DNA from: a virus | Reading direction: 5' to 3' (one strand) | Virus record (IMG/VR): IMGVR_UViG_3300022188_000175 | Span: 1 to 43,273 of that record | DNA length: 43,273 nt | In this document: positions 4,418 to 41,865 of the stretch, one piece after another | Numbering within the stretch: position 1 is the first letter of the stretch | Layout: every line of letters starts with the position of its first letter | The notes under the pieces: generated by a model | What the model saw: the letters and a program-made list of their open reading frames with translations, nothing else | What the model was told of the DNA's origin: nothing | Databases searched by the model: none | Made by a program: the position numbers and the translations under genes

Positions 4418-5423
4418 CGAAGATCCTCCCCCCTAATTCTTCACCGTAAAATTCTGTCAAGACCTCACGTTCCAGCTTCAGCGCAAGTTCGGGCTGTAAA
4501 CGAGCGTCAGTCGATCGAAATGTGGTCCCGTCTTTGTGAACATACCAGCCTCCCCCTTTCTTTTTCCATAACCCAAGATAAGCTCCCATCTCCAACACGA
4601 ACGCTCCGTCGTCAAACCCACGGTCAAAGTAATAATCGACTTCAGCAGTTCTAAACGGACGACCCACCTTGTTCTTAACCGCGGTGAGTTGGATGGTGAT
4701 CCCTACAATTTCGTTTCCCTTTTTCAGCAACTGTTTGCGCTTGAGCTGCAGTTGAACAGCCGCGTGAAAATCGAGCGCGTGACCGCCTATTTTCGCGACA
4801 CCACCGCCACCGAAGGGCCCCATCATCGGACGTTCTTTTTGCTGGTTTATCCAAATCAACGCCACCTTCCGCTCCCAAATCAAATCGGTGATTTTTCGTA
4901 GAATCCGTGACAGTACCCTTGCGTGAAGTGCAGTTGCCTTATCAGAAAGGTCCTCATCAACCTCTTCCAAGACGGGAGTCGCGGCAAGAGAGTCAACCCC
5001 GATTAACACGGGGACGTCGGGGTTCCGCTTGCGTAACTCATCGCACAGGAAAGTCAACTGGTTACCCAGCTCCTGCAAATGACTCGGTTGAAACACCAGC
5101 AGTTTGCTCGGATCGATCCCGAATAGTCTACTCCAATCGTCAGTGTAAGAGTGCTCAGTGTCCGCCAGAATTGCGACGCCTCCCAGCTGCTGACACATCC
5201 CTAAAGCGGACGCAAGAACCGCACTTTTTCCCACGGATTCAAACCCAAAGATCTCGACCATTCGTCCCAACGGAATTCCGCGCTTACCCAACACGAAATC
5301 CACAGGTAAGAGCCCCGTGGGTACGAACGCGTCAGGTGAAGAGAACATGTCTTTTTCATCCTCCAAAAAATGTAAGGACCCTTCTCCAAACCTCTTGCAA
5401 AACTCGTTCACCAAATCCTCCAT
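4284..5423 (-). CDS. recA: RecA-family recombinase
   Basis: A 379-residue RecA-type strand-exchange ATPase that would form filaments on single-stranded DNA for recombination-dependent replication and repair. The core has Walker A GFESVGKS (60-67), the ADTEHSYTDDW segment matching the catalytic Glu region of RecA, Walker B VPVLIGVDSLAATP, and a loop L2-like region with IWINQQKERP followed by a Gly-rich GPFGGGGVAKIGG. A Lys-rich C-terminal domain and an acidic tail (GEVSEDDETLRAPSGDVDGG) follow, as in bacterial RecA. The start codon overlaps the SSB stop codon as TGATG, implying translational coupling. The last roughly 45 codons, including the acidic tail, overlap the next gene in another frame. 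Confidence 0.9.
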   Translation of the reverse strand: MEDLVNEFCKRFGEGSLHFLEDEKDMFSSPDAFVPTGLLPVDFVLGKRGIPLGRMVEIFGFESVGKSAVLASALGMCQQLGGVAILADTEHSYTDDWSRLFGIDPSKLLVFQPSHLQELGNQLTFLCDELRKRNPDVPVLIGVDSLAATPVLEEVDEDLSDKATALHARVLSRILRKITDLIWERKVALIWINQQKERPMMGPFGGGGVAKIGGHALDFHAAVQLQLKRKQLLKKGNEIVGITIQLTAVKNKVGRPFRTAEVDYYFDRGFDDGAFVLEMGAYLGLWKKKGGGWYVHKDGTTFRSTDARLQPELALKLEREVLTEFYGEELGGRIFDVRRALKDRAVAEAPGGEVSEDDETLRAPSGDVDGGAEGGDVLL

Positions 5424-6283
5424 CAGTCACCCCCTAACAAAGTTTCTAGCATCTGCTTGAGCTGCGCTGGATCACGAACCGCTTGTTGTTGGGACTGTTG
5501 AGATTGAGGCTGAGGTTGGGGCTGGGGTTGAGGTTGTGATTGTTGCGGAGGCTGAACATTCTGAGGCTGCTGCTGCGAAACCGGTGCAGTAACAGGATTG
5601 GTTTGCGGTTGGCTTTGTGGTGCGCTCTGTCCCTGGCTTTGACCCTGGAGGGCATTCGGTTCTCGTCCCTGAAGCGCACCCGCGCTTTGTGCCATCGCGT
5701 TCAATCTCGTGATGTTCACATGAATGCCCTCGTCTCGCAAAATCTCGATCAACTGCGAAGGTTCAACCGCGGAGTACACAGTTTTCAGGTTCGGGATGTC
5801 CTTCAGGAAAGAAGAATCAATTTGGCTAACTTCAGGCTCGGGGAGAACCTGATATCGTGTACCTATCCCAGTGCCCTCCCGAATGATCACCAAATTACGA
5901 CCGTACATCGGGTCTGTTATGTCGCCCCACTTCCCTTCAACAATCAACCTCGCGACATCCGCCCAAACCGATGCGGGCATTGGCCAAATTTGTACTCCAT
6001 CCTGTGGAGCGTCCAGATCGACAATACTGACCAGGAAGCGCTCGATCGTTCTGATTGTGTTCCCCATTATGACACCAGTTGACAGGATCTCGCAGACCAA
6101 ACACTCGGGCTGGGTACACAAGACTGGACGGCTTCCGATCCAATGGAGCCTCACCGCGTGGTAAAAGGGCTCGTTGGGATCCAGTGGCGGGAGAATCCTA
6201 ATGTGGTTCTCCCCCTCCCGAGGTCTCCAAAAACCTCCCCTCTTCCTTCTTTCTAAATCCCTTCGTACCTGCTCAACGTTCAT
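5423..6283 (-). CDS. Single-stranded DNA-binding protein, gp32-like
   Basis: A 286-residue protein resembling phage gp32-type single-strand DNA binding proteins. It has a basic N-terminus (RRDLERRKRGGFWRPREG), an OB-fold-like start (NHIRILPPLDPNEPFYHAV), and a Cys pattern LCTQPECLVCE where gp32 relatives carry their zinc site. The core ends near residue 205. A long low-complexity linker of Pro and Gln (about 205-265) follows, then a short conserved-looking tip (PAQLKQMLETLLGGD). A flexible linker with a terminal acidic peptide is how SSB proteins recruit partners. The ATG at 6283 follows GGAGGTGTTACG. The stop overlaps the recA start, and polA lies just upstream, so SSB, RecA and polymerase form one replication unit. 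Family assignment is by pattern, not alignment. Confidence 0.72.
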   Translation of the reverse strand: MNVEQVRRDLERRKRGGFWRPREGENHIRILPPLDPNEPFYHAVRLHWIGSRPVLCTQPECLVCEILSTGVIMGNTIRTIERFLVSIVDLDAPQDGVQIWPMPASVWADVARLIVEGKWGDITDPMYGRNLVIIREGTGIGTRYQVLPEPEVSQIDSSFLKDIPNLKTVYSAVEPSQLIEILRDEGIHVNITRLNAMAQSAGALQGREPNALQGQSQGQSAPQSQPQTNPVTAPVSQQQPQNVQPPQQSQPQPQPQPQPQSQQSQQQAVRDPAQLKQMLETLLGGD

Positions 6284-6301: not shown

Positions 6302-9094
6302 TTAGTCTTCTACTATTATGTCACCTTCCTCGCCCCAAAACTGACCGATGGTAATCTCGACAGGGATTACCAAATCGGTATCAGCAACGGGGCGCTCCAT
6401 TACCATTTTTACTAATTGCGCGACATCATCAACAATTTCCTCTTTGCACTCAACGTACAACGCGTCATGTACGTTCAAAACCACGTGCGCATCAAGCCTC
6501 TCCTTCTTAAAGAGCTGAACTAGGATCGCCATCGATTGGTTAGTGTGCATCGCGACCACGGATTGAATGGGGAAGTTAATCGCTTGTCGTTCCCACTCGG
6601 ACAAAAACTTACCGGGACCAAAACGGCGCGTCGCACCGAATAGGTTGCGAATGATTCGCTTGCTTTTGGCTTCTTCGACAATACGGTGCATGTATTCGCG
6701 AATTTCCGGATAAGTGTCGAAGAAGCTTTCGTACAGTGTGGTCGCTTCCTCCAAGCTAAGATCAAACTGCTCAGCCACACTCGAGGGGCCACGACCGTAA
6801 CAGTTGTGCGTAAACAACCCATTCGCGACAAAGCTATGATCATCCTCTACCGTTAGGTCGTAAACCTCCCCATCGTGAGAAACCTTCTCGATCCGAACGA
6901 TCTTCTCGTCCGCGTAAAGTCGCTCTCCTGAGGAACACCCAACGTCTTCCGACCCCAACGCCAAAACAGTTCGCCCGACCTCGAGGTCTTCTGCTCTAAC
7001 AAACCTGTTGCCAGCCAAAATCATATGATCGGGAGTACAACGAATGACCTTACCTGTGTTAGTCGCAATTTCCAAAAGCTCTCCCGCTCTGACCCTGTGT
7101 ACGTCCAAAACTCGCTTCCAGTTCCCTTTGTGGGTCAAAACTAACTCACCGGGCTTAATATCTTTGATCTTCTTATACCCGCTACGAGTTACAACGAGTG
7201 TGTCACCGTCCAAACAAACACCAAAATTGAAAAACTTCGCAAGTTTCCTTTCGTGATCGTCAATTTGCTCCAAAGGCTTCTTGAACAAGTAAGAAGCGGT
7301 AAGCTTGTGCAGATCCACACCTCTCTGGAGAGCGTCAAGCATTGTTTTGCATTTCGAGATGTACGCAACGACTCTTAGCTCCGCTTGACTGAGATCAGCC
7401 TCGATCAGTTTGTATCCTGGTGGCGCCACAAAAATATTCCTTACCGAGGTCTTTGGGATGGTTTGAAGCGGAGGGTCAGTACAACTCAACCGCCCTGTCA
7501 CAGTCCCAGTCACCTTGAAGTCAGGGTGTACCCTCCCGTCTTCCTTCACGAACTGATAAATCCCACCTCGACCTCCTGCCAAATAAGTAGAAAGCACCTT
7601 GTATCGCTTTCTCAGCTTCAACAAAAGCTGCGGAACACGATGCACCTTGGCCAACTCACGAAGCGTGTCCTCGTTGGTGGACGCTGCTCCCTTTGCGGTA
7701 CGAAATTTAACAGGGAGCTTGAGCACACCAAACAAAATATCCTGCAGTTGTTTGGTCGAACGCCAATTGAACCTTTTTCCGACTTCCTCGAACAACTCCT
7801 CCTCGATTTGCGCGATCTCTTCTTGTAGCCTCTTTGAAAATTGGGTCACCTTTTGACGATCAACGGAAATCCCGTAGTACTCAACCTCTGCGAGTGCTTT
7901 CGCCGTAGGGAGCTGAACCTCCCAGAAAACTCGCTTCCATCCCTCGTCGCGCAGAATCTCAGGCTCGAGCGCCTGCGTGATCTTGTAAGCGGCCACAGCG
8001 TCACCACCCGCGTACTTGTACAAAACCTCAGAAGGAATCTCAGAGTACGACCGAATCTTCTTTCCTTTCTTTATTTTGAGCAGATCCCAATCGTACTTGG
8101 GTAGGTTCGTGTACAACGAGGTGAGGGAGGTTAAATCAAGCGGAAAGTTCTCGTTGATCGTGTGCTGCGCGATCGTGACGTCAAAGTAGTAGTTTTTGAA
8201 CCCAACACCTAACTTGCGCAAAAACTTCAAATCGAATTTCAGGTTGGCACCTGTTTTCCGAACGGGTGTTTCAAGAATCGCACGTAACGCATCAACAAAC
8301 CGCGGATAACTTGCGGGTAACACATATCCCACCTTTCCATCGAAGGAAAAAGAAGCGCACAAAACAGAATCACTCATGAAGTCGAATCCTGTGGTTTCGA
8401 GATCAAACGCCAACAAATCCTTAGAACCCAAACTGCGCACCTTTTCGATAAACCACTCCACCGCAACGGGAGAGTCCAAAACTATCACATCAAGAGGGTC
8501 TTCCTGGTAACGTTCGCAAAGAACCCGGTACGCTTTAGCCAAATCGCGCACAAAAACCTCTTCCTGTTCAGGAACGCGTAACACATACGCAGGATGGTAC
8601 GTGGGGAGAACAAGTCCGACCGGTGTTGGAATGACGAAACCACGGAAGGAAGTAATGTGTTCTTCGTCAAGTAAAAACTTCAAGGCGAGTGCGCCCAACG
8701 CAATGATAATCTTGGGTCGCAGTCGTTCGAGTTCCCGCAACAATCTCTTCTTACAATGCGGCGCATAGTTTTTGTCAGGGGTTTTTAGCTCACACAAACA
8801 AGCGTTAGTAATGTAAAAATGCTTGTGGCGAAGTTCGTAAAACTCATCACTGCTTCCCGCCTTGCTGTGCTCCTCATACAAGGAGGGAAAGAAACGACTG
8901 ATGTACAAATTCAACAATTCACCCGACGCACCGCAAAATGGGAAACCACGTTCGAACTCAGTTTGACCCGGACTCTCCCCTACGATTACAACTTGTGCGT
9001 CGAGCGTCCCGCACGGGGGAACAACCTTCGGTGAACGTTCCTTAAAATAAGGGCACTCCCCACACAAATCATCTACCCGTACTTCCAAGCCCAT
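6302..9094 (-). CDS. polA: DNA polymerase I with N-terminal uracil-DNA glycosylase domain and an in-frame mini-intein
   Basis: A 930-codon replicative polymerase. Residues 1-195 are a family-4-type uracil-DNA glycosylase as in SPO1-like polymerases: GESPGQTEFERGFPFCGASG (39-58), LPTYHPAYVLR (163-173) and Cys residues 11, 14, 99/101 and 114 that fit an iron-sulfur cluster. Residues 225-375 are a DEDD 3'-5' exonuclease with D231/E233 in AFDLETTG, TGANLKFDLKF, and the last acid in YAGGDAVAAY. The family A polymerase follows: TGRLSCTDPPLQ, motif A EADLSQAELR (565-574), motif B split by the intein after FNFGV (622-626) and resuming CYGRG at 765, and motif C VLNVHDALYVE. Removing the 138-residue intein leaves 792 residues. 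The start ATG follows GAGGGGTAGTC and overlaps the dUTPase gene by 26 bases. All expected catalytic residues are present. Confidence 0.93.
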   Translation of the reverse strand: MGLEVRVDDLCGECPYFKERSPKVVPPCGTLDAQVVIVGESPGQTEFERGFPFCGASGELLNLYISRFFPSLYEEHSKAGSSDEFYELRHKHFYITNACLCELKTPDKNYAPHCKKRLLRELERLRPKIIIALGALALKFLLDEEHITSFRGFVIPTPVGLVLPTYHPAYVLRVPEQEEVFVRDLAKAYRVLCERYQEDPLDVIVLDSPVAVEWFIEKVRSLGSKDLLAFDLETTGFDFMSDSVLCASFSFDGKVGYVLPASYPRFVDALRAILETPVRKTGANLKFDLKFLRKLGVGFKNYYFDVTIAQHTINENFPLDLTSLTSLYTNLPKYDWDLLKIKKGKKIRSYSEIPSEVLYKYAGGDAVAAYKITQALEPEILRDEGWKRVFWEVQLPTAKALAEVEYYGISVDRQKVTQFSKRLQEEIAQIEEELFEEVGKRFNWRSTKQLQDILFGVLKLPVKFRTAKGAASTNEDTLRELAKVHRVPQLLLKLRKRYKVLSTYLAGGRGGIYQFVKEDGRVHPDFKVTGTVTGRLSCTDPPLQTIPKTSVRNIFVAPPGYKLIEADLSQAELRVVAYISKCKTMLDALQRGVDLHKLTASYLFKKPLEQIDDHERKLAKFFNFGVCLDGDTLVVTRSGYKKIKDIKPGELVLTHKGNWKRVLDVHRVRAGELLEIATNTGKVIRCTPDHMILAGNRFVRAEDLEVGRTVLALGSEDVGCSSGERLYADEKIVRIEKVSHDGEVYDLTVEDDHSFVANGLFTHNCYGRGPSSVAEQFDLSLEEATTLYESFFDTYPEIREYMHRIVEEAKSKRIIRNLFGATRRFGPGKFLSEWERQAINFPIQSVVAMHTNQSMAILVQLFKKERLDAHVVLNVHDALYVECKEEIVDDVAQLVKMVMERPVADTDLVIPVEITIGQFWGEEGDIIVED
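6803..7216 (-). other. Mini-intein in PolA motif B (138 residues, no homing endonuclease)
   Basis: Residues 627-764 of the polymerase interrupt the O-helix motif between FNFGV and CYGRG. The insert starts with Cys1 in CLDGDTLVVTR (block A), has the TxxH signature in RCTPDHMIL (block B), and ends with EVYDLTVEDDHSFVANG (block F) and LFTHN followed by Cys+1 (block G). These are the residues for N-S acyl shift, transesterification, Asn cyclisation and release. Joining the flanks restores a normal motif B ending NFGVCYG. At 138 residues it is near the minimal splicing domain and has no room for a homing endonuclease, so it can splice but probably cannot home unaided. Confidence 0.95.
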
Positions 9095-9503
9095 GACTAC
9101 CCCTCTCTGTAAATTGGCTATTAAGGTATGTAATTGTTTCCCCGTCCGAAGGAATCAACACCACCTCCTTTGGAGACAAGAACAACAACTGAGCAAAACG
9201 TTCACCTTCTTCAATGGTTAAAGGGTGAGCGTTCAGGTTTGTAACCACAGGATTAACCTCACCGTCAAACCCTGGATCAAAAAGCGCTAAACAAATTATC
9301 CCTTTCAAACGCCAACTACTACGAGGAATTACTAACCCCGCTACACCGTTCGGAAAAGCAATCCGAACGCACGTCTTAACGATTCGAGAGGCGTGGGGTG
9401 GAAGCTCAACCGTTTCGGCGCAACGTAAGTCAAACCCTGCCGCCCCATGTTTCCTGGTTGGCCAGAGATCTCGAGAAGGTGCGGTGAAGTAAACCTCAAG
9501 CAT
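9069..9503 (-). CDS. dut: Deoxyuridine 5'-triphosphate nucleotidohydrolase (dUTPase)
   Basis: A 144-residue trimeric-type dUTPase that hydrolyses dUTP to dUMP and pyrophosphate, keeping uracil out of DNA and supplying dTMP synthesis. All five family motifs are visible: AAGFDLR (motif 1), PRSSW (2), FDPGFDGEVNPVVTN (3), GERFAQLLF (4) and the C-terminal RGSHGLGSTGR (5). Length is normal. The ATG follows AGGGGGTC. Its 3' end overlaps the start of the polymerase, which itself carries a uracil-DNA glycosylase domain, so two uracil-control functions are adjacent and probably translated together. Confidence 0.95.
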   Translation of the reverse strand: MLEVYFTAPSRDLWPTRKHGAAGFDLRCAETVELPPHASRIVKTCVRIAFPNGVAGLVIPRSSWRLKGIICLALFDPGFDGEVNPVVTNLNAHPLTIEEGERFAQLLFLSPKEVVLIPSDGETITYLNSQFTERGSHGLGSTGR

Positions 9504-10323
9504 TTTGACCCCCTGTCGAACGATAGCTTATACGTGAAAACGCACTGTGTGGGTGGATTGATTCGAAATGCTCACACGACACCACGAAGTCTCGTATCCT
9601 TCCTCGCGACACCCAACTGGAAAGTTCCTCAGCCAGACGTCGTGTCATATCTTCAACAAACCTCGGGTTCTCGTGAGCGCGCTCGGTAACCCACTTTTCA
9701 TCTGGTCTTTTCAGAACAGAAAAAATCGGTGAGCTCGCCTTTTCCTCAACTAAATTCACTACTTCCTCGATCCAAACCATCTGGTCATTTAACTCCAACG
9801 TCACCTCTGCGACACTTCGCTGGTTGTGAGCGCCTCTTCCCCCGGTTAACTCAAGAGAGCAGGGACACAAAGACAAGTAAGGAACAGCAACAGTCATCCA
9901 AACCTGCTCTCTGTCGCGTGTCCTTCTCCCTGTAAAAGTGACGTCAACGGGCAGAGGACTTTCGATTCTCGAGACAGGCGAAACCTTTGACACAAGATAG
10001 GGAAACCTAAAACGTACGAAGGCGTGCTCTGAGCCTAATCTTTCACGAATCGCCTTGAGGAGCCTGTGAACCTTTTCCACAACCGTTGCGTTGCGCGATT
10101 GCGCGATTGGAACTAAAACTTCTGGGAGCCGCGACATGTTTATACCCCGGACGTTCGGATTGAGATCACACATCAAATCGGCGGACGCGACAGTTTCAAA
10201 CGAGGCGCCTCCGGGCCTCAAAACCAACAAAGAAACTCGTACATCGCGAACCCCCACCTCCTCAATGTACACCGGCGGAAACCCAGTTGTTTGTGCTTGT
10301 ACGTCTGGGAGCTCACAATTCAT
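9496..10323 (-). CDS. folE2: GTP cyclohydrolase IB (FolE2)
   Basis: A 275-residue GTP cyclohydrolase of the FolE2 (type IB) family, which converts GTP to dihydroneopterin triphosphate. The signature is CPCSLELTGGRGAHNQRS near residue 150, with the catalytic-type Cys and the HNQRS motif. VRGINMSRLPE near the N-terminus and the C-terminal CEHFESIHPHSAFSR are also typical. In this genome the product most likely feeds the QueD-QueE-QueC pathway to preQ0, encoded 16-19 kb upstream in transcription order. Folate or biopterin synthesis is less likely because no other genes for those are seen. The ATG follows GAGGGAGGTGCTAA and overlaps the primase gene by 11 bases. Confidence 0.93.
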   Translation of the reverse strand: MNCELPDVQAQTTGFPPVYIEEVGVRDVRVSLLVLRPGGASFETVASADLMCDLNPNVRGINMSRLPEVLVPIAQSRNATVVEKVHRLLKAIRERLGSEHAFVRFRFPYLVSKVSPVSRIESPLPVDVTFTGRRTRDREQVWMTVAVPYLSLCPCSLELTGGRGAHNQRSVAEVTLELNDQMVWIEEVVNLVEEKASSPIFSVLKRPDEKWVTERAHENPRFVEDMTRRLAEELSSWVSRGRIRDFVVSCEHFESIHPHSAFSRISYRSTGGQNA

Positions 10324-20763: not shown

Positions 20764-21050
20764 AAGATCCTCCTGAAAAGTATCAACGTCTTCCCTATGG
20801 TACGCGCATACCCCTTCTCGCGTAACCACTTTAACCCCGTCAAACGCGGGAACCCTTCCAGACTGTACGTCCCCGGCCCACGATCAACTAAAAAATCCAA
20901 AAGGGGAGAACCCACGAGCCGGTTCTCCCCTAATAAAGCCAACAACCCAGCCTTCCGTAACGTATAAGACGGCTCAGAAAGAACCTCGATAGAAAAAGCG
21001 CGTTTGGAACTCCCTTTGTCTTTCCTTCGACCAATTCCGGAGCGGGACAT
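20760..21050 (-). CDS. Hypothetical protein; frame contains a terminator hairpin
   Basis: A 96-residue open frame with a basic start and a winged-helix-like end (GFPRLTGLKWLREKGYARTI). Its ATG has a moderate site (GGTGGTGGGA) 77 bases inside nrdD, and its stop overlaps the next start as ATGA. These favour a real coupled gene. Against it, a perfect 11-base-pair hairpin with T-rich tail lies inside the frame at 20888-20931. Either the frame is chance in an intergenic region or it is a gene whose transcript is attenuated. I favour a real gene only weakly. Confidence 0.5.
   Translation of the reverse strand: MSRSGIGRRKDKGSSKRAFSIEVLSEPSYTLRKAGLLALLGENRLVGSPLLDFLVDRGPGTYSLEGFPRLTGLKWLREKGYARTIGKTLILFRRIL
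20888..20931 (-). terminator. Strong intrinsic terminator or attenuator after nrdD
   Basis: On the minus strand AGGGGAGAACC pairs perfectly with GGTTCTCCCCT across an 8-base loop (20902-20912 with 20921-20931). The sequence after it is TTTTGGATTTTTTAG. It lies 43 bases after the nrdD stop, the normal place for an intrinsic terminator, yet inside the 96-codon frame that precedes the phosphoribosyltransferase. It would end or damp transcription from the NrdG-NrdD block into the regulator block. Confidence 0.8.
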
Positions 21051-22803
21051 AATATCCCACCACCCGCGTGATTCTGTCGATGTTATCTTTTTCTCCGCAT
21101 TTAGGACATGAAGTCAACCCGATAAATTTAGCGGAGCACTCGCGGCAGACATTCGCGACGTAATTCACCGCAAAGTAAATCACCTTGTGCATCGCGTAGG
21201 CTATAAGCGCTTTCATCTGTCGCCGACTGATTCTCTCGCCGATGTTTATATGAAGAATCCCGCCCCCGGAAGTCTTCGAATCCAAGCGCCCCGTATGATC
21301 GATCCGGTCCTTCAGCGGAATTTCCTCGTAAAGTGGAATGAACTGATTCGAGTAGCCGACCTCCACATACTGCTTCTCGCCATACAAAATCTCATCCAAC
21401 TTGGACAAGGTAAAAGCAGCTTGCTCCGCAGGGACCGCTTCCACGTTATACACATACCCGTCCTGCTTGGAGAACGCTTTCGCCTTACCCTCGATCCGGT
21501 CGAGTACCTCACCCATGAACGCGAGAATGTCCTCGATCGAGCGCTTGCCCATGTAGCGCGCCATCTCAAACAAACCTATCACCCCGAAAGTACTGAACAT
21601 ACGTGACAAGTACATGAAACCGTGGTCGAAAAACATCAAAAAGTGCCTCGAAATTCTGTCCTTCAATATATCACGATGCGTCTTCAGGAGCTGTCGCGCT
21701 CTCTCAAGGGTTTCGTCAAGTAAACTCCAGAACCTGTCGTGATCTCCATGTGCTCTCACAGCAATGCGCGGAAGATTGAGCGTGACGACTCGAGTCGACC
21801 CAGTTTTTACATCCCCAGACCCAAAGGTGTTAAAGAAGGTGTTGTCCAAAGAAAGTCTACAACACATGAGCGTGCGCGGACGTTTATCCGCGTAAATGTT
21901 CCACGCACCCAACGGCGCGTTCCACTCAGCCAACTGATCGACAAAATACTGATCGAACCCGTTTCCTGTGTACAAGTTCGCCGTCAGCACTGGGAACTTA
22001 TAAGGAAGGCCGTCTACCCCCTCCGAAACCAGCTCCGCGAAAATCCGTTGAACCCGTTGAGTCTCCTCGAGATCAAAACCCGGCCGATATGAAAACGACT
22101 GCACAAGAAGATTCTTATCGTAGATAGACACATTACTGAACAAAGATTGGACCCCCGAGCGCATAGGCTGGTTCAAACTGAACACAAATCGCTGCAACAA
22201 CTGGCGGACACCATAGTCCGTTAGCCCGTCGCGTTTGGTAAAAGTAGCCAGAGCAACCAAGAAGTCGGGAACAGCAACAGCTCCCGCGACTTGGTTTCCG
22301 ACAGAAAACATCGTCTCAACGACTTGCGCCACGAACGAGTCCGCGTGCCGCGGCGGTCGCGAGGTCAACTGCGAATTGAAAGGCATTCCTCGTTCAGCGA
22401 TGTCAAACGCGCTGATAGAAACACAATACGGGACCTGAACCAAAATCCCAGAAGAATCATGAAAATACACATCACCACTGATCACGCTGTCAATTAACTC
22501 ACGCGCTCTCTCCTTTCCATACTGTTTTGCGGCGTACTTCCATAAAAGAAAAAGACCGTGGAGTTTGTACAAAGGCTTGGTTAACTCACTAGCATAGGAA
22601 GTAGGAGACCGAAAGTAACTTGTGTTCGCGTTCTTGTCAATGGTCAACTCTGTTACTTCGGTCTCAAAATATTGCCGCGACCTTTCTGAAAAATCCAAAT
22701 GCTCACGTGAAATCCCTTGAACCTCAAGGACTTCGGGACACTCCTTGTCCCACCACTCAAAGATCTGCTCGAATTCGGGGTCGAACGACACGTCTATTCG
22801 CAT
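20974..22803 (-). CDS. nrdD: Anaerobic (class III) ribonucleoside-triphosphate reductase
   Basis: A 609-residue glycyl-radical enzyme that reduces ribonucleoside triphosphates to dNTPs without oxygen. The C-terminus has the zinc site CRECSAKFIGLTSCPKCG and the glycyl-radical loop RVVGYYVPLRNWSKERQ. Upstream are typical segments such as FDHGFMYLSRMFSTFGVIGLFEM and GGGILHINIGERIS. The N-terminal ATP-cone regulatory domain of many NrdD proteins is not recognisable, so dATP feedback control may be absent, which would suit a virus. Start ATG follows GGAGGTACTTCG. The gene follows nrdG, which encodes its activase, with a 10-base overlap. Confidence 0.92.
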   Translation of the reverse strand: MRIDVSFDPEFEQIFEWWDKECPEVLEVQGISREHLDFSERSRQYFETEVTELTIDKNANTSYFRSPTSYASELTKPLYKLHGLFLLWKYAAKQYGKERARELIDSVISGDVYFHDSSGILVQVPYCVSISAFDIAERGMPFNSQLTSRPPRHADSFVAQVVETMFSVGNQVAGAVAVPDFLVALATFTKRDGLTDYGVRQLLQRFVFSLNQPMRSGVQSLFSNVSIYDKNLLVQSFSYRPGFDLEETQRVQRIFAELVSEGVDGLPYKFPVLTANLYTGNGFDQYFVDQLAEWNAPLGAWNIYADKRPRTLMCCRLSLDNTFFNTFGSGDVKTGSTRVVTLNLPRIAVRAHGDHDRFWSLLDETLERARQLLKTHRDILKDRISRHFLMFFDHGFMYLSRMFSTFGVIGLFEMARYMGKRSIEDILAFMGEVLDRIEGKAKAFSKQDGYVYNVEAVPAEQAAFTLSKLDEILYGEKQYVEVGYSNQFIPLYEEIPLKDRIDHTGRLDSKTSGGGILHINIGERISRRQMKALIAYAMHKVIYFAVNYVANVCRECSAKFIGLTSCPKCGEKDNIDRITRVVGYYVPLRNWSKERQREFQTRFFYRGSF

Positions 22804-23432
22804 CGAAGTACCTCCAGTTCGAAATCTTTGAAGAGTTGTCCATCTGTTTTCTCATACGATTGCACAATCAACCCGGGAAAGTCTCTCTTTAAGGACTCTA
22901 AGTCCTCACACGTATGAATTGGCTTGCAGACTGTGATTCTGAACTCGCTACGTTGCGGGAAGAACCTGCGCAGGAACTCCGCGGATTGTATTATGTTGTC
23001 TAACATCTCGTTCGTAAAGAGCGGGCTAACTCGTTGATAACATTCGAGATTCAGTCGATGCTTGACGTCCAGGGACACCCGATCAAGCAGAGGCATCAGA
23101 CGTACAAGCTTCTCGTAAAACGTACCGTTGGTGAACAACTTGGTCTTCAAACCCATATTGCGAACTCTTTCCAGGAACTCCTCTAAAACCTCCACAGGAT
23201 GAACAAGCGGTTCCCCACCCAAGAGAACAACAGCGGTGGCAAGCGGTACCTGAGATCCAATAAACGCTAAAACTTCCTCGAGAGTCATCTTTGGGGGTTC
23301 GACCACGACTCTCGCGTTGAAACACATGCGACAGCGCATATTGCAGCCGGAGAAGAACACAGAAACCGCAATCTCGTCCTCAAAATCCGAAAACGAAGGG
23401 AAAAGACAAGAATGTACTCTCTTTTTGTTCAC
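22794..23432 (-). CDS. nrdG: Anaerobic ribonucleotide reductase activating protein (radical SAM)
   Basis: A 212-residue radical SAM activase that installs the glycyl radical on NrdD using S-adenosylmethionine and a [4Fe-4S] cluster. The cluster motif is CNMRCRMC (Cx3Cx2C) at about residues 30-37, followed by the SAM-binding VVLLGGEPLVHP segment. It begins with GTG overlapping the upstream stop as GTGA and ends inside the nrdD start, so activase and reductase are translationally coupled. The adjacency makes the assignment secure against other small radical SAM proteins. Confidence 0.9.
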   Translation of the reverse strand: MNKKRVHSCLFPSFSDFEDEIAVSVFFSGCNMRCRMCFNARVVVEPPKMTLEEVLAFIGSQVPLATAVVLLGGEPLVHPVEVLEEFLERVRNMGLKTKLFTNGTFYEKLVRLMPLLDRVSLDVKHRLNLECYQRVSPLFTNEMLDNIIQSAEFLRRFFPQRSEFRITVCKPIHTCEDLESLKRDFPGLIVQSYEKTDGQLFKDFELEVLRCE

Positions 23433-25464: not shown

Positions 25465-26175
25465 TCAGAAATTGAAAACCTTACGGCAAATTTCAACCGC
25501 ACGTTCCCACTCGTCGTCTGTCAGAAGGGGGTCCTTAACCTCATTCTCGAGGAATGAAAAAGTGCGTTCCATACAAGTAGCGCAGCGCAAACACGGACGT
25601 TCTCCTCCCTCGTAACAGGACCAAGTCAAAGAATAATCCACACCCAACCTCAACCCAAGCTTAACTATCTCGGCTTTTGTCATATTCACAAATGGGGCGA
25701 GTACCTTCACCTGAGTGTAAGTGCCAAGAGAGGACGCTCTCGACAGAGCTTCCACAAATTCAGGACGACAATCAGGGTACACCTCAAAGTCGTTACGGTG
25801 CGCTCCGTAAAAGACATAAGGGATTCCAAGATTCTCCGCCCAAGCAATCGCGATTGACAACAATACCATGTTACGATTGGGAACAACCGTAATTTGCTGG
25901 TTCTCACGAGCGTAACGTTGGTCTTTTGGAATCTCACTCTCGTCGGACATTAAAGCAGAACGATTCGCGACCTCGCGCATGAACGAAATGTTAACGATCT
26001 TGTGCTCCTTACAGAGCTCCTCACCCCAAAAGATCGCATACTGTAACTCCTTCTTGTGCCGCTGACCGTAGTAAAAACTAATCCCGTATACCTCGTCGTA
26101 ATCCCGACTCACATAATGAAGTAAGGTCGTAGAATCCACACCTCCTGAAAAGACCACAACCGCACCCTTTCCCAT
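25465..26175 (-). CDS. queC: 7-cyano-7-deazaguanine synthase QueC
   Basis: A 236-residue ATP-dependent enzyme that turns 7-carboxy-7-deazaguanine into preQ0. The PP-loop is SGGVDSTTL (10-18), followed by the family segments FYYGQRHKKEL, VVPNRNMVLLSIA and YGAHRNDFEVYPDCRPEF, and the zinc site near the end: CYEGGERPCLRCATC. Length is typical. Start ATG is directly behind GGAGGAGGTCG. With QueD, QueE and FolE2 it completes synthesis of preQ0 from GTP, the precursor of 7-deazaguanine DNA modifications in phages and of queuosine or archaeosine in tRNA. Confidence 0.95.
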   Translation of the reverse strand: MGKGAVVVFSGGVDSTTLLHYVSRDYDEVYGISFYYGQRHKKELQYAIFWGEELCKEHKIVNISFMREVANRSALMSDESEIPKDQRYARENQQITVVPNRNMVLLSIAIAWAENLGIPYVFYGAHRNDFEVYPDCRPEFVEALSRASSLGTYTQVKVLAPFVNMTKAEIVKLGLRLGVDYSLTWSCYEGGERPCLRCATCMERTFSFLENEVKDPLLTDDEWERAVEICRKVFNF

Positions 26176-26383: not shown

Positions 26384-26851
26384 TCACACCCCCACGGTTG
26401 CTGAAGAACTTTCGGTTTCGAAAACCGTGACTGAACGAAGCCAAACCGCCTGAGGCGAACCAGGGTTATTCCTCTCCCACCACTCCGCCAACCTTTTCGA
26501 GATCTCGTCGAACAAGTAACGGCAAATCTCCTCAGAAGTAGGATGATTAGGAATTCGAACGATCCGGTACCCAAATGGCTTCAACGCCTCACAAAGCGCG
26601 TCATAACTCTCATCAGTTCCTAACAGTAAGGCGTGGTCCAACTCATCCAAAATGGGGGAAACTATCTCCTTCAAGTGCGCGAAGTCGATTAACATCGACC
26701 CAAAAACTCCTGATTTCCGGAAAGAACCCAAAGGACCTTCCACTCGAACAATCACTTCGAAGCGGTGCCCGTGAATGTTGCTACACTTGCCAGGGTACCC
26801 CTGTAAAACGTGCGCCGCGTCGAAGGAAAACTTCCTCTTCAACAAATGCAT
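26384..26851 (-). CDS. queD: 6-carboxy-5,6,7,8-tetrahydropterin synthase QueD
   Basis: A 155-residue member of the 6-pyruvoyl-tetrahydropterin synthase family, converting dihydroneopterin triphosphate to carboxytetrahydropterin. The start FSFDAAHVLQGYPGKCSNIHGH gives the three zinc-binding His and the catalytic Cys; LIDFAHLKEIV, LDELDHALLL and PTSEEICRYLF are further family motifs. ATG 26851 is supported by GAGGAGGTAGCG; the 34 extra codons upstream have no signal. It receives substrate from FolE2, and its product goes to QueE. QueD is favoured over eukaryote-type PTPS by the neighbours. Confidence 0.93.
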   Translation of the reverse strand: MHLLKRKFSFDAAHVLQGYPGKCSNIHGHRFEVIVRVEGPLGSFRKSGVFGSMLIDFAHLKEIVSPILDELDHALLLGTDESYDALCEALKPFGYRIVRIPNHPTSEEICRYLFDEISKRLAEWWERNNPGSPQAVWLRSVTVFETESSSATVGV

Positions 26852-26868
26852 CGCTACCTCCTCGCGTG

Positions 26869-27054
26869 TTATTCCGTTGTTTCTTGTAACTTGCGTACCA
26901 GAAGACGTCCCAAGCGCTTGTGACCTGCCTTCAAGTACCACTTCTTCCACCATCCAGCGACTACCTTCACAGCCTCGGCATCCAAAGTTTCAAGCTCCTT
27001 GGCTGCTTCCTCCGCAGCTTTGTCCATAGCCTCGATGATCTCCTCTCTCATCAT
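26869..27054 (-). CDS. Small charged helical protein
   Basis: A 61-residue protein, acidic and helical in its first half (EEIIEAMDKAAEEAAKELETL) and basic in its second (GHKRLGRLLVRKLQE). ATG 27054 sits behind GAAAGGAGGTTAAAA, a near-ideal site, although the gene begins 65 bases inside the radical SAM gene. Unknown function within the deazaguanine block. Confidence 0.7.
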   Translation of the reverse strand: MMREEIIEAMDKAAEEAAKELETLDAEAVKVVAGWWKKWYLKAGHKRLGRLLVRKLQETTE

Positions 27055-28411
27055 TTTTAACCTCCTTTCTCACCTTCTCAAAAATTTCCTCGATAGGGGA
27101 CCCAACCTCGAAAGGTTCCATCGGAAGATACGAAGCGGGTCCCACCTTACATTCAACAAGATCAACCGCCATGGTAAACTCACCATCCCACCCGGAAAAC
27201 CATCGCGCGCGGGGTGCTGTGAGAACCTGCGGATGACGCTCCACATACCAAGTGTCAAACATCACATATCGAACGCCCCAGAGCATAGTTGTGTCAGGGC
27301 CTGGGCGTTCCCAACCCTCAAAAAGCTCGGGAGGCCAAGGCTTAACTCGCATACCTCGCGCTCTCCCGAAAGGTTTGAACCCCAAAACCAAAACCGGGAA
27401 CGGAATCCTCTCGACCACCTCAAAAGGAGTGATCCCTTCCACCACATGAATCACAAACTTTGGGCGACGCCCCCGAAAGTGTGACTCACGCACGCGCAAA
27501 AACTCCTCGTAGTCTTCCTTACTGGTAACAGTAATCCCAATCGCTCCAACAAGCTCCCGGAGTACATCCGAGTGCCGCGCCAAAAGCTCAAAAGAGTGAG
27601 TCGTGATGTTAACAACGATGTGTTTTGAGCGCGCGTACTCCAGAATCTGTACCAAATCAGGATGTGTTAAAGGTTCACCGCCGCCAAGCGCTATCTCGAG
27701 AACCTTACCCGAAATGGAATCGAAAAACCTTTTGATGCGCTCGAGAGGCGCAAAGGTCCCACAGCGTGAAGCTGACTCGTAACACCAAGGACACTCGCGG
27801 GGGCAATAAGTGCAGATCTTCACATCAATTGTTTCCGGGAAAACTGGTTCAAGAGATTTGAGCGCGCAAAAGGACACACGATAACGCTCCCCCGTTGTGG
27901 GAGAAAGTACGACCCAATAGTTACCATTTTTCTGTACCCAAAGGTCAATGTCTCCAACAAACCACGGGAACGTTTCAACGCGAGGAAACTCATGCGAGTA
28001 GATAGAAGCGTCACTCCCACCCTTCACCGCGATCTGTGGGAGCAAAACAAACTTTTTCAACTCCCGGTAAAACTCGAGAGCCGGTTCACCCTCAGGCGTT
28101 ACAAACCGAGGCCACCTCGACTGATGGTCAACCGTCAACGTAGCGTTAGTCGTTAACACTACTGCAAGTTCCTCGAGAGAAAACAACCCTGAGATTAACT
28201 CTCTGGTCTTCTCAGCCGGAAACCCTGACTCAAGAACCTGCGCCACAAGGTACGTAAGTTTCCATTCTGTGGAACGTAAAAAGAACCACTCCCAACTGAA
28301 CCCACTCGATGGAAAACTCGGGGCAAATTCGGATTCGTCAAAGCACCACACCAACGCGTGCGAAGAACTGGAGTTCGTCTCGAAGATCGGCCTGTAATGC
28401 CAGACAAACAT
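26990..28411 (-). CDS. Radical SAM protein of unknown function in the deazaguanine cluster
   Basis: A 473-residue protein. Residues 1-190 form a domain starting WHYRPIFETNSSSSHALVW; the FETNSSSSH motif recurs in uncharacterised phage proteins. A radical SAM core follows: CPRECPWC (Cx3Cx2C cluster motif) within a Cys-rich ICTYCPRECPWCYESASRC, LEIALGGGEPLTHPDL for SAM binding, then VNITTHSF and IGITVTSKED strands. It lies between queE and queD, its ATG overlapping the queE stop as TGATG, so it is co-translated with preQ0 enzymes. It is clearly distinct from QueE and NrdG. It may modify the deazaguanine base or a peptide, but this is inference from context; no substrate motif is evident. Confidence 0.85.
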   Translation of the reverse strand: MFVWHYRPIFETNSSSSHALVWCFDESEFAPSFPSSGFSWEWFFLRSTEWKLTYLVAQVLESGFPAEKTRELISGLFSLEELAVVLTTNATLTVDHQSRWPRFVTPEGEPALEFYRELKKFVLLPQIAVKGGSDASIYSHEFPRVETFPWFVGDIDLWVQKNGNYWVVLSPTTGERYRVSFCALKSLEPVFPETIDVKICTYCPRECPWCYESASRCGTFAPLERIKRFFDSISGKVLEIALGGGEPLTHPDLVQILEYARSKHIVVNITTHSFELLARHSDVLRELVGAIGITVTSKEDYEEFLRVRESHFRGRRPKFVIHVVEGITPFEVVERIPFPVLVLGFKPFGRARGMRVKPWPPELFEGWERPGPDTTMLWGVRYVMFDTWYVERHPQVLTAPRARWFSGWDGEFTMAVDLVECKVGPASYLPMEPFEVGSPIEEIFEKVRKEVKNDERGDHRGYGQSCGGSSQGA

Positions 28412-29049
28412 CACACACCCCTTTTCGTGTCAAAAATCGCAATGTGTAACCGTGGGGAGAACCTCACTCCATACTTCACACACCACTCCCACACTTTGGG
28501 CGCATTTGACAAATACTCAGCTCTTGTCGCACCCAAGGGCATCAAAAACACTCTCTCGCGGGGAAATTTGTATTCGGAGACTTTCTCAAGTGCGCGCAAA
28601 ACCTCATCCTCCTGTGATACCACAAACTTCAAGAAGGTGTTAGGAGCACTTTTCCAATCCTTCCAGTGAATAGGCTTGTAACGGTCGAAACACCACAACT
28701 TCGGGGAAATGATCCACCTTGTGACACCAGTGTCAAAAGGAAGTCCGATTGTTCCATTCGTCTCCACTTCCACCTCGAAGTCCCTGGAAAGTAAAGTTAG
28801 AAACCGCACAATGTCAGGTTGCAGAAGTGGTTCACCCCCCGTTACCACCACCAAGTCGGTACCCTGTTCTTTGACCCGCTGAAGGAGCTGTTCAACCGAA
28901 ACCTGTTCAGGTGGGGCGCCCTGCCAAGAGTAAGTGGAGTCACACATAGCGCACTTGAGATTACACCCAAACGTGCGCACAAAGGTAGCAGGACGCCCCG
29001 CGCTCGGGCCCTCGCCTTGCAAGCTTTTAAACACCTCAGTTAGCAGCAT
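28411..29049 (-). CDS. queE: 7-carboxy-7-deazaguanine synthase QueE
   Basis: A 212-residue radical SAM enzyme that contracts carboxytetrahydropterin to 7-carboxy-7-deazaguanine. The N-terminus shows SLQGEGPSAGRPATFVRTFG followed by CNLKCAMCDSTY, the cluster motif in the arrangement typical of QueE. VVTGGEPLLQPD binds SAM and VEVETNGTIGLP is a further family motif. The product is passed to QueC. The ATG lies 14 bases inside the preceding HTH gene and the stop overlaps the radical SAM start. Confidence 0.94.
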   Translation of the reverse strand: MLLTEVFKSLQGEGPSAGRPATFVRTFGCNLKCAMCDSTYSWQGAPPEQVSVEQLLQRVKEQGTDLVVVTGGEPLLQPDIVRFLTLLSRDFEVEVETNGTIGLPFDTGVTRWIISPKLWCFDRYKPIHWKDWKSAPNTFLKFVVSQEDEVLRALEKVSEYKFPRERVFLMPLGATRAEYLSNAPKVWEWCVKYGVRFSPRLHIAIFDTKRGV

Positions 29050-39655: not shown

Positions 39656-40855
39656 CTAAATGACGATTACGCTACCAAAAGGTACCTTGGGGTCGAGCGT
39701 TTGCTCAGTTTCAACAACCACCCACAACACAGGGTAAGAGGGTGGTCTCTTGGGGAATTCTCCAAATGTGTCAGTGAAGTACACAAGCAAAGTTGGTTTG
39801 ATCTTGCGTCTGTCGATGTCTTCGAACAGGGGTACGAACGAAGTTCCACCTCCACCAACTAACTCAATCTCAGATAACACAGGATTGTGGTAATACCTGT
39901 GCACCTCCGCGTCCGCAACCCAGACGTGTAAATCACTCACGAGTCGCATCAGCTCGCTCAATCCAGTCATGAACGTAGAAAGCTCGAGGTGCGAAATCGA
40001 ACCCGAGGTGTCGATCCCGACGCCTAACACAGTGTGCTTCTTGAGCACACCTGGGAGTCGAACTCCATTGATCAGGGCCGCACGGCTGTAAAAAGGTATC
40101 TTCGTGTAAGTGAATTCTCTCGAGCGAACACCCAACACCGAGCTGATCTTCTGCTGAATGTACCTCTTCCAATTCACACCAGTGGAAGAAGAGCGCTCAA
40201 ACTCACGTTTGATGTGTGCTGGCATTGAACCCTGTGACTTGTGTCTAGCGAACTCCTCACGTGCAACCCCTGAGCCTTCCACTGAGTTCTTCTCTCCTGT
40301 TGGTGGGACGCCAACCTCACCGCTACCACCACCGCTTGAATGACTCTTCCATCTGACCTTACCGGGTGAATGTGGTGTCGGATCTTCCACAACGACAAAT
40401 GAAACACCACCAACGGTAAACTCCTTTTTACCCTTAGAGATCTCTGATTGGATGTTTTTCATCAGCCAACGATAAACCACCTCCACTGGTCCGCGCGGTG
40501 CACCTTCAAGAAAGAGAAATCCCTTGGACTTGAGCTCATACTCTGGGATCCCAACCGCATCGACCAAAAAGCAATGCACAGTATGATCAGCCGCGATATT
40601 CCAAATCACGGGGTGGCGACCAACACCACGCTCAAGATGCTTGAGCATGTGGTGACACAACTCGTGCATAAAAGTGTACAGCTTCACATCACCTCGCAAT
40701 CCTTCTGGTAGGAAGATCTTGCCACTCCAGGTTAAAGCTCCACCAGCGGACACGAACTTATCTGTGTAGTACAAAGGTACATAAAGCGCGAAGGAGGTAC
40801 CTAGCTTTGCGTAAGCTCTGATCCTCACAGGGTCTCGAGTAACCTCCTTCTTCAT
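39656..40855 (-). CDS. VWA-domain protein with metallopeptidase-like N-terminus
   Basis: A 399-residue protein. The N-terminal part has a zincin motif HELCHH (64-69, HExxH) in LYTFMHELCHHMLKH and then IWNIAADHTVH, as in the DUF2201-type metallopeptidase-like domain. A Ser/Gly-rich linker follows (SHSSGGGSGEVGVPPTGEKN). The C-terminal half is a von Willebrand A fold with the metal-site motif GIDTSGSIS, the Thr in GGGGTSFVP and Asp in VYFTDTFGEFP. Such proteins pair with MoxR ATPases, and the gene directly follows one, overlapping it. Target unknown. ATG 40855 follows AAGGAGGATTGAG. Confidence 0.85.
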   Translation of the reverse strand: MKKEVTRDPVRIRAYAKLGTSFALYVPLYYTDKFVSAGGALTWSGKIFLPEGLRGDVKLYTFMHELCHHMLKHLERGVGRHPVIWNIAADHTVHCFLVDAVGIPEYELKSKGFLFLEGAPRGPVEVVYRWLMKNIQSEISKGKKEFTVGGVSFVVVEDPTPHSPGKVRWKSHSSGGGSGEVGVPPTGEKNSVEGSGVAREEFARHKSQGSMPAHIKREFERSSSTGVNWKRYIQQKISSVLGVRSREFTYTKIPFYSRAALINGVRLPGVLKKHTVLGVGIDTSGSISHLELSTFMTGLSELMRLVSDLHVWVADAEVHRYYHNPVLSEIELVGGGGTSFVPLFEDIDRRKIKPTLLVYFTDTFGEFPKRPPSYPVLWVVVETEQTLDPKVPFGSVIVI

Positions 40856-40856
40856 C

Positions 40857-41846
40857 TCAATCCTCCTTCCCCTCAAGAATGTCCAAGATCTTGCGCGAAA
40901 GCTCAGTGACCAAGCGGTTCTGCTCCCTCAAAAGCTTAATCATCGCATCGCGGTGGAATATATACAACGACTTAAAGTAACAAAACTGCGCGTCCTCATG
41001 TAACTCTCTTTCCACAAACGCGAGAATCTCCTCGTCGGGCGTGTAGCGAGCGAGTGCGCTCGCTATCACCACTTGGTCCTTGGCCGATTGCGGTTTATGC
41101 CTCAGCAAATCCTTAGGACCCAAGCCCAGGATCGGCCACGCATCAATGAATCGTGAGCCCGCCTCCTCTCCTACAACCCCAATTGCAACATCCTTTGGGA
41201 AACCTCTCTGGAGGGCGCGAGAGAGCGCAAACCAAGATCTTGGAGATGCAAACTTACGAGAAGTGGGTGGTTCCGAGGTGAACAAGTACTCAGGATGTGA
41301 AAGCACAAAAGCGATAACTTTTGAGTCGACACCCTGGGAGTGCGCGTACTCCGCAAAGTCCTCGGGCGTGGGTCTGAATTCCAAGCCAAAGTCGAAACGG
41401 TCCATAATAGGAGCAAGAATTTCGTTGGCACCCGCACTTTGCAGTGAAAGGTTTCCAATGGCAACAAACCTCGTGCCCTCGGACACTGTGTGCCCGTGCA
41501 ACCTTCTACACAACAGCAACTCAAATAGCGGGGATTGGAGCTGCTCCGTTGCCAAGTGTATATCATCAGCGACCAACACCACTTCTCTTTCCTCAGGGAG
41601 CCAATCTGGGCGCGTCCAGAACGTTCGCCGCGACTCACGATCGATATCAGGTAATCCTTTGGCCTCACCGGGTTCCATTAAGTAAAGTCTGATCTCGTGA
41701 TAAGGCAGTCCAATCTCATTGCAAGCTTGCGCTACAATCTCCGACTTCCCAACACCTGGTGGACCCGAAATGATCACGCTGAAGTTGTCCTCCAAACACT
41801 TGAGAAGGAACTTCTTGAGATTCCTTCCTCCTTCGATCTGGTACAT
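40857..41846 (-). CDS. MoxR-type AAA+ ATPase
   Basis: A 329-residue AAA+ protein that probably remodels or activates the VWA partner or its target. Walker A is SGPPGVGKS (27-35), Walker B VVLVADDIHLA, sensor 1 FVAIGNLS, and an arginine-finger-like IMDRFDF; the order and MEPGEAKGLPD insert fit the MoxR branch. ATG 41846 has CTAAAAGGAGGTGGTC before it and lies 20 bases after boundary element C. The VWA gene follows immediately. Confidence 0.87.
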   Translation of the reverse strand: MYQIEGGRNLKKFLLKCLEDNFSVIISGPPGVGKSEIVAQACNEIGLPYHEIRLYLMEPGEAKGLPDIDRESRRTFWTRPDWLPEEREVVLVADDIHLATEQLQSPLFELLLCRRLHGHTVSEGTRFVAIGNLSLQSAGANEILAPIMDRFDFGLEFRPTPEDFAEYAHSQGVDSKVIAFVLSHPEYLFTSEPPTSRKFASPRSWFALSRALQRGFPKDVAIGVVGEEAGSRFIDAWPILGLGPKDLLRHKPQSAKDQVVIASALARYTPDEEILAFVERELHEDAQFCYFKSLYIFHRDAMIKLLREQNRLVTELSRKILDILEGKED

Positions 41847-41865
41847 GACCACCTCCTTTTAGTTT

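Follow-up and report, generated by a model that had tools for sequence, protein, structure and literature searches.

A class 1 mini-intein in the O-helix of a phage UDG-exonuclease-PolA and the recurrent occupation of its insertion site

How can an insert come to lie, and to persist, within the catalytic helix of a DNA polymerase when it carries no recognisable endonuclease of its own? The question is raised by a polA gene in the IMG/VR virus record IMGVR_UViG_3300022188_000175, of which the stretch analysed here, called the window, comprises positions 1 to 43,273 (43,273 nucleotides). The gene (6302..9094, minus strand, as are all other window features given below) encodes a 930-aa precursor with a uracil-DNA glycosylase (UDG) superfamily domain (aa 29-179, 8558..9010; PF03167, 1.8e-23), a 3'-5' exonuclease domain (aa 215-380, 7955..8452; PF01612, DNA_pol_A_exo1, 1.4e-14) and a family A polymerase domain (Pfam DNA_pol_A, 1.9e-87). 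Membership of family A is also supported by the conservation of D567, R616, K620, F624, H876 and D877 among 41 aligned PolAs. The UDG domain scores above the PF03167 cut-off and reaches 84.5 bits with TIGR00758, below the cut-off of 125.3; four candidate cysteines for the Fe-S site of a family 4-like UDG were picked out in it by eye. The fusion of UDG to a polymerase, regarded as unusual in the initial annotation, proved to be recurrent: alignments to many phage relatives begin at residue 11, and a UDG-containing Pol I has been described in Pseudomonas phage PaBG (PMC7412058).

The DNA_pol_A match falls into two pieces with an Intein_splicing domain between them. Translation of the reading frame bears out, with exact coordinates, the 138-residue in-frame insert originally reported at 6803..7216 (codons 627-764), which runs from CLDGDT to GLFTHN and is flanked by KFFNFGV and CYGRG. 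The N-extein (aa 1-626, 7217..9094) contains the UDG and exonuclease domains, the palm and the first part of the O-helix; the C-extein (aa 765-930 and the stop codon, 6302..6802) contains the remainder of the O-helix together with motif C (VHD). When the insert alone was compared with profiles, it matched TIGR01443 (3.1e-10), TIGR01445 (5.4e-10) and PF14890, Intein_splicing (1.5e-15), the last from intein residue 34 onwards, support for the first third coming from the predicted fold, the alignment and TIGR01445. The junction pattern K...FGxC...[DE]T gave one match in the window and none in 100 shuffles. Because of the profile matches and the absence of the pattern from the shuffles, the insert is not a chance resemblance.

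All residues expected of a class 1 intein are present, together with VYDLTV: the first splicing nucleophile Cys1 (7214..7216), block B as TPDH (T61 to H64, 7025..7036), D120, the C-terminal pair His137-Asn138 (6803..6808) and the second nucleophile Cys+1 (6800..6802), which would remain in the polymerase at E. coli position 765. The class 1 residues, T61 and H64 of block B among them, are invariant in 14 same-site inteins. AlphaFold predicts an all-beta HINT fold for the insert alone (mean pLDDT 92.3, pTM 0.84), and the top Foldseek matches of this model are inteins. The best match and closest solved structure is the phage-type mini-intein fold of gp41-1 (PDB 6qaz; TM 0.82/0.88), which differs in sequence (28% identity) and in its host protein, a gp41 helicase. 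A profile scan of the 138 residues found no endonuclease family at E <= 1. Across the intein body there is no long ORF in another frame, one ORF overlapping the last intein codons, and no second intein was found within the window. By its residues and predicted fold the insert is thus a textbook class 1 mini-intein, free of an endonuclease as had been proposed.

By motif alignment, the point at which the insert interrupts the O-helix (motif B) lies between E. coli residues 764 and 765. In the precursor, the sequence here is R616-K-L-A-K620-F-F-N-F624-G-V626 ^ C765-Y-G, with the first part at 7217..7249 and the second at 6794..6802, and corresponds to R754...K758...F762-G-x764 ^ x765-Y766-G in E. 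coli; the agreement of 765 and 766 in the two numberings is accidental. Among the 41 aligned PolAs, K620, F624 and G625 do not vary, and R616 is almost invariant. In the intein-free relatives checked, the O-helix is uninterrupted and carries a contiguous NFGxxYG. In the predicted precursor it is shortened, with one helix spanning 613-624, the next starting at 770 and confidence at the junction below 50. Because the helix is unbroken in the intein-free relatives and cut in the predicted precursor, an unspliced polymerase is very unlikely to work. Both the exact placement in motif B and the need for splicing therefore hold as first claimed, the latter as a strong inference from a chain that would not form a normal O-helix. 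The possibility that relatives keep the segment within a folded polymerase is answered by these unbroken helices and by an insert predicted to fold alone as a HINT domain.

The initial annotation had suggested a search of viral PolAs for the same site. Junction patterns demanding Cys at the intein start plus either Phe762 or Cys+1 were run over 2.9 million viral contigs, and an identical insertion point was found in 21 others, a few of them near-identical to one another (L031, L038, L054, L063, L069, L073 and L075; L083, L085, L086, L087, L088, L089, L090, L091, L093, L094 and L095; L320, L324 and L389). Both junctions were resolved in 18, and the C-junction only in L085, L088 and L091. LAGLIDADG_3 was matched by 13 of the scanned same-site inserts (3e-13 to 5e-23), that is, by every one except those of the window, L073, L320 and L324. 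The LAGLIDADG inserts form size groups of about 327-340 aa and 423-438 aa, with L086 at 372 aa. An empty K..NFGxCYG site is present in 40 contigs, all of which align to the PolA of the window; in one comparison, the empty L255 and the filled L083 share 249/300 and 251/300 bases on the two flanks (~83%). Of the relatives read from a set found without selection for Cys, nearly all have Leu, Ile, Val or Phe at position 765, and Cys765 was never seen there in an intact helix; the Cys needed by the intein is thus a minority state there.

Several candidates were set aside. L084 and L092 matched the C-junction pattern in proteins that are not PolA, and the O-helix of Bacillus phage Moonbeam is intact. 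When a single protein served as the query for related loci, all that was retrieved were YKKIKDIK inteins, which are unrelated and lie in proteins other than PolA. No PolA was among the listed matches that were read from a junction scan of genome contigs, nor among the best matches listed for isolate phages when the queries were the window intein and two same-site inteins of full length; the isolate-phage matches were inteins of terminase, helicase and reductase.

How the mini-intein arose is suggested by the comparison of intein and extein trees. The intein tree places the window and L073 together as sisters (96/80) in a clade of five (100/98.7), the other members of which, L038, L063 and L093, all carry LAGLIDADG; the window and L073 lack it. 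In the extein tree, the window again pairs with L073 (100), and L038, L063 and L093, two of them represented by partial sequences, are scattered. Supported branches of this tree force at least seven label changes, with same-site elements spread across distant PolA lineages. Identity between the window and L073 is 62.4% for the intein and 54.6% and 57.0% for the exteins; the corresponding dN values are 0.32, and 0.51 and 0.42, the lower intein value being comparative only, as dS is saturated and yields no dN/dS. GC and GC3 are equal in intein and exteins, and so there is no compositional sign of recent insertion. L073 also keeps the order ssb, PolA, dUTPase, FolE2, Toprim and DnaB, in which ssb and PolA are separated by one SIS-domain gene. 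In the window, PolA adjoins a dUTPase gene (9069..9503; PF00692, 1.2e-22), an order kept in L073, and a gene for a gp32-like single-strand binding protein (5423..6283; PF08804, 1.3e-4, below the curated cut-off), a similar gene being found in L073. Most likely, the clade moved among polymerase lineages while it bore an endonuclease, and inheritance of the mini form was vertical from then on, as indicated by the pairing of the window and L073 in both trees and by their common gene order. The history that fits best is one in which the endonuclease was lost and the intein was then retained vertically for a long time; the direction, loss rather than gain, rests on parsimony in a clade of five rows with two known mini-inteins.

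Taken with its relatives, the insert is very probably a cis-splicing class 1 mini-intein that descends from a LAGLIDADG homing intein, lost its endonuclease and had the motif B codons (FGx^CYG) as its homing site. The precursor would be made as a single 930-aa chain, in which Cys1 would bring about an N-S acyl shift at Val626 and Cys+1 would then attack. Asn138 would cyclise with the assistance of His137, and an S-N shift would join Val to Cys. The predicted products are a UDG-exo-PolA of 792 aa, its O-helix restored, and the released 138-aa intein. Sequence comparison and prediction provide the residues, the fold, the site and the homing relatives; the splicing chemistry, with excision, ligation and the dependence of activity on them, is an inference for which the conserved class 1 residues are the basis. 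With the endonuclease gone, the intein would no longer home by itself. Since both flanks are residues of the catalytic helix, an active helix would be regained only through an in-frame deletion precise to the codon, and the intein is most likely retained by purifying selection on splicing. Cys765 would thereby be fixed in a double role, as polymerase residue and splicing nucleophile.

An alternative to retention by bare necessity is that splicing acts as a switch, responsive to redox, temperature or DNA state, which sets the timing of phage replication and has been retained for the advantage this brings. The intein has been retained without an endonuclease over a long divergence, is better conserved than the exteins and interrupts the active-site helix, and other inteins are known to splice conditionally (reviewed in PMC5874633). 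In addition, oxygen could matter to this phage, which encodes an anaerobic ribonucleotide reductase, NrdD (20974-22803; PF13597, 2.7e-106), and, next to it, a radical SAM protein resembling an activase (NrdG-like; 22794-23432); from these genes the host is probably at least facultatively anaerobic. However, the conservation is equally expected from the bare need to splice, and the response to redox or temperature through Cys residues put forward in the initial annotation finds no support. The cysteines of the intein are C1, C60 and C94: there is none at -1, Cys1 and Cys+1 are the usual nucleophiles of class 1, and C94 is missing from L073. C60, which precedes TPDH, is also present in L073, L038, L063 and L089. 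Obligate splicing by itself is no switch, and a regulatory role would be an added hypothesis. We therefore consider such a switch unlikely, and its more specific form, an intein stripped of its homing engine and kept as a conditional replication checkpoint in the polymerase helix of a phage with an anaerobic host, decidedly unlikely.

The spread of same-site elements over distant PolA lineages, with its seven or more forced label changes, implies an actively colonised site, and the mini-intein might accordingly still be mobile with a homing endonuclease supplied in trans. This is improbable, given that no LAGLIDADG-type gene was seen among the main window ORFs scanned and that the agreement between the window and L073 in both trees and in gene order suggests vertical descent. 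HINT domains that do not splice are known in general, but it is very improbable that the insert is one of these, left in place in a working or dead polymerase, in view of splicing residues that are all intact and invariant, of polymerase, exonuclease and UDG domains that are all recognisable with their conserved residues kept, and of an O-helix that runs unbroken in those intein-free relatives that were checked and is interrupted in the predicted structure of the precursor. A splicing mini-intein that lost its endonuclease and became trapped in the helix remains the preferred reading.

Bacteriophage DNA polymerase I has already been named as an intein host (PMC549080), and PolA is listed among intein-bearing proteins (PMC5874633). 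No description of a phage PolA with an intein at motif B was found in the papers that were accessible, and priority is not claimed. The DNA polymerase P45 of Hamiltonella phage APSE-1, likewise a phage enzyme of family A, has an intein-like insert that ends in HN^C. However, its own O-helix is intact (RQIGKVMELGLGYG) and its insert lies elsewhere, just before CENICQA, so that it was ruled out as a same-site case; it also differs in an annotated HNH endonuclease gene, APSE-1_46, nested in another frame. The PolA of Microcystis phage Mvi-JY20 also contains a mini-intein, of 133 aa, but at the TGR-SS motif instead of the O-helix and on an unrelated branch of the intein tree. Inteins also interrupt conserved motifs of the active site in archaeal and mimiviral family B DNA polymerases, which are replicative too (PMC549080), a likeness drawn by description; the polymerase family is another one, and the mimiviral intein has an endonuclease domain. 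Group I introns in phage polA (SPO1, Pf-WMP3 and others) are also mobile elements in conserved polA codons, but they are RNA introns, at positions 674, 676 and 881 (PMC3428280), and a site common to them and the window intein (764/765) was ruled out.

A different arrangement was observed in L320, L324 and L389, the last assigned by sequence. Their same-site inserts are 258-267 aa long and have a Cys start, a T-x-x-H block and a terminal Asn followed by Cys+1 (SN^C); those of L320 and L324 gave no match to Pfam intein models. Inside each lies a +1-frame ORF of 196-236 codons (L320:5946-6653, L324:7170-7757 and L389:9514-10104, plus strand), the protein of which (GRGI...LDFDRxxNxGxYSKxNLRLV) looks by eye like HNH homing endonucleases; Pfam gives weak support in L320 (0.068) and none in L324 or L389. 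The +1-frame proteins are 47-53% identical, against 37-43% for the intein frame, and the third positions of the +1 frame are the most variable; the ORF is therefore very probably a real gene. APSE-1_46 (L215:3636-4301, minus strand) is nested likewise inside P45. An endonuclease gene overlapping its own intein out of frame deserves separate study. Some phage PolA genes also hold several inteins: three each in L325 (2339-6970) and L324 (3560-8365), both on the plus strand, at sites in the exonuclease region, TGRLS, IQ^TVPKH, DYSQ or the O-helix. A second intein was read at an IQG^SNADT site in L087 and L095, and the C-exteins of L090 and L094 are long enough to hold one.

Elsewhere in the window, genes for FolE2 (9496-10323), QueC (25465-26175), QueD/PTPS (26384-26953) and a radical SAM protein that is possibly QueE (28411-29049) likely form a preQ0 set, which suggests 7-deazaguanine modification of the phage DNA; no transglycosylase for this modification was identified among the window ORFs scanned. 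At 39656-41852, a MoxR-like AAA ATPase gene adjoins one for a VWA-like DUF2201 metallopeptidase protein, for which PHROGs gives the conflicting label of HNH endonuclease.

What is new here is the recurrent motif B site and the homing stages found side by side; the proposed mechanism is ordinary. Surveys of viral PolAs that require an intact motif B may mishandle intein-bearing genes. A compact natural intein with an O-helix dependent on splicing would offer a clean test of whether mini-inteins that persist act as regulators or are simply trapped. With empty, full-length and endonuclease-free states together, the homing cycle, in which an intein invades, loses its endonuclease and gets stuck, may be read in a single gene.
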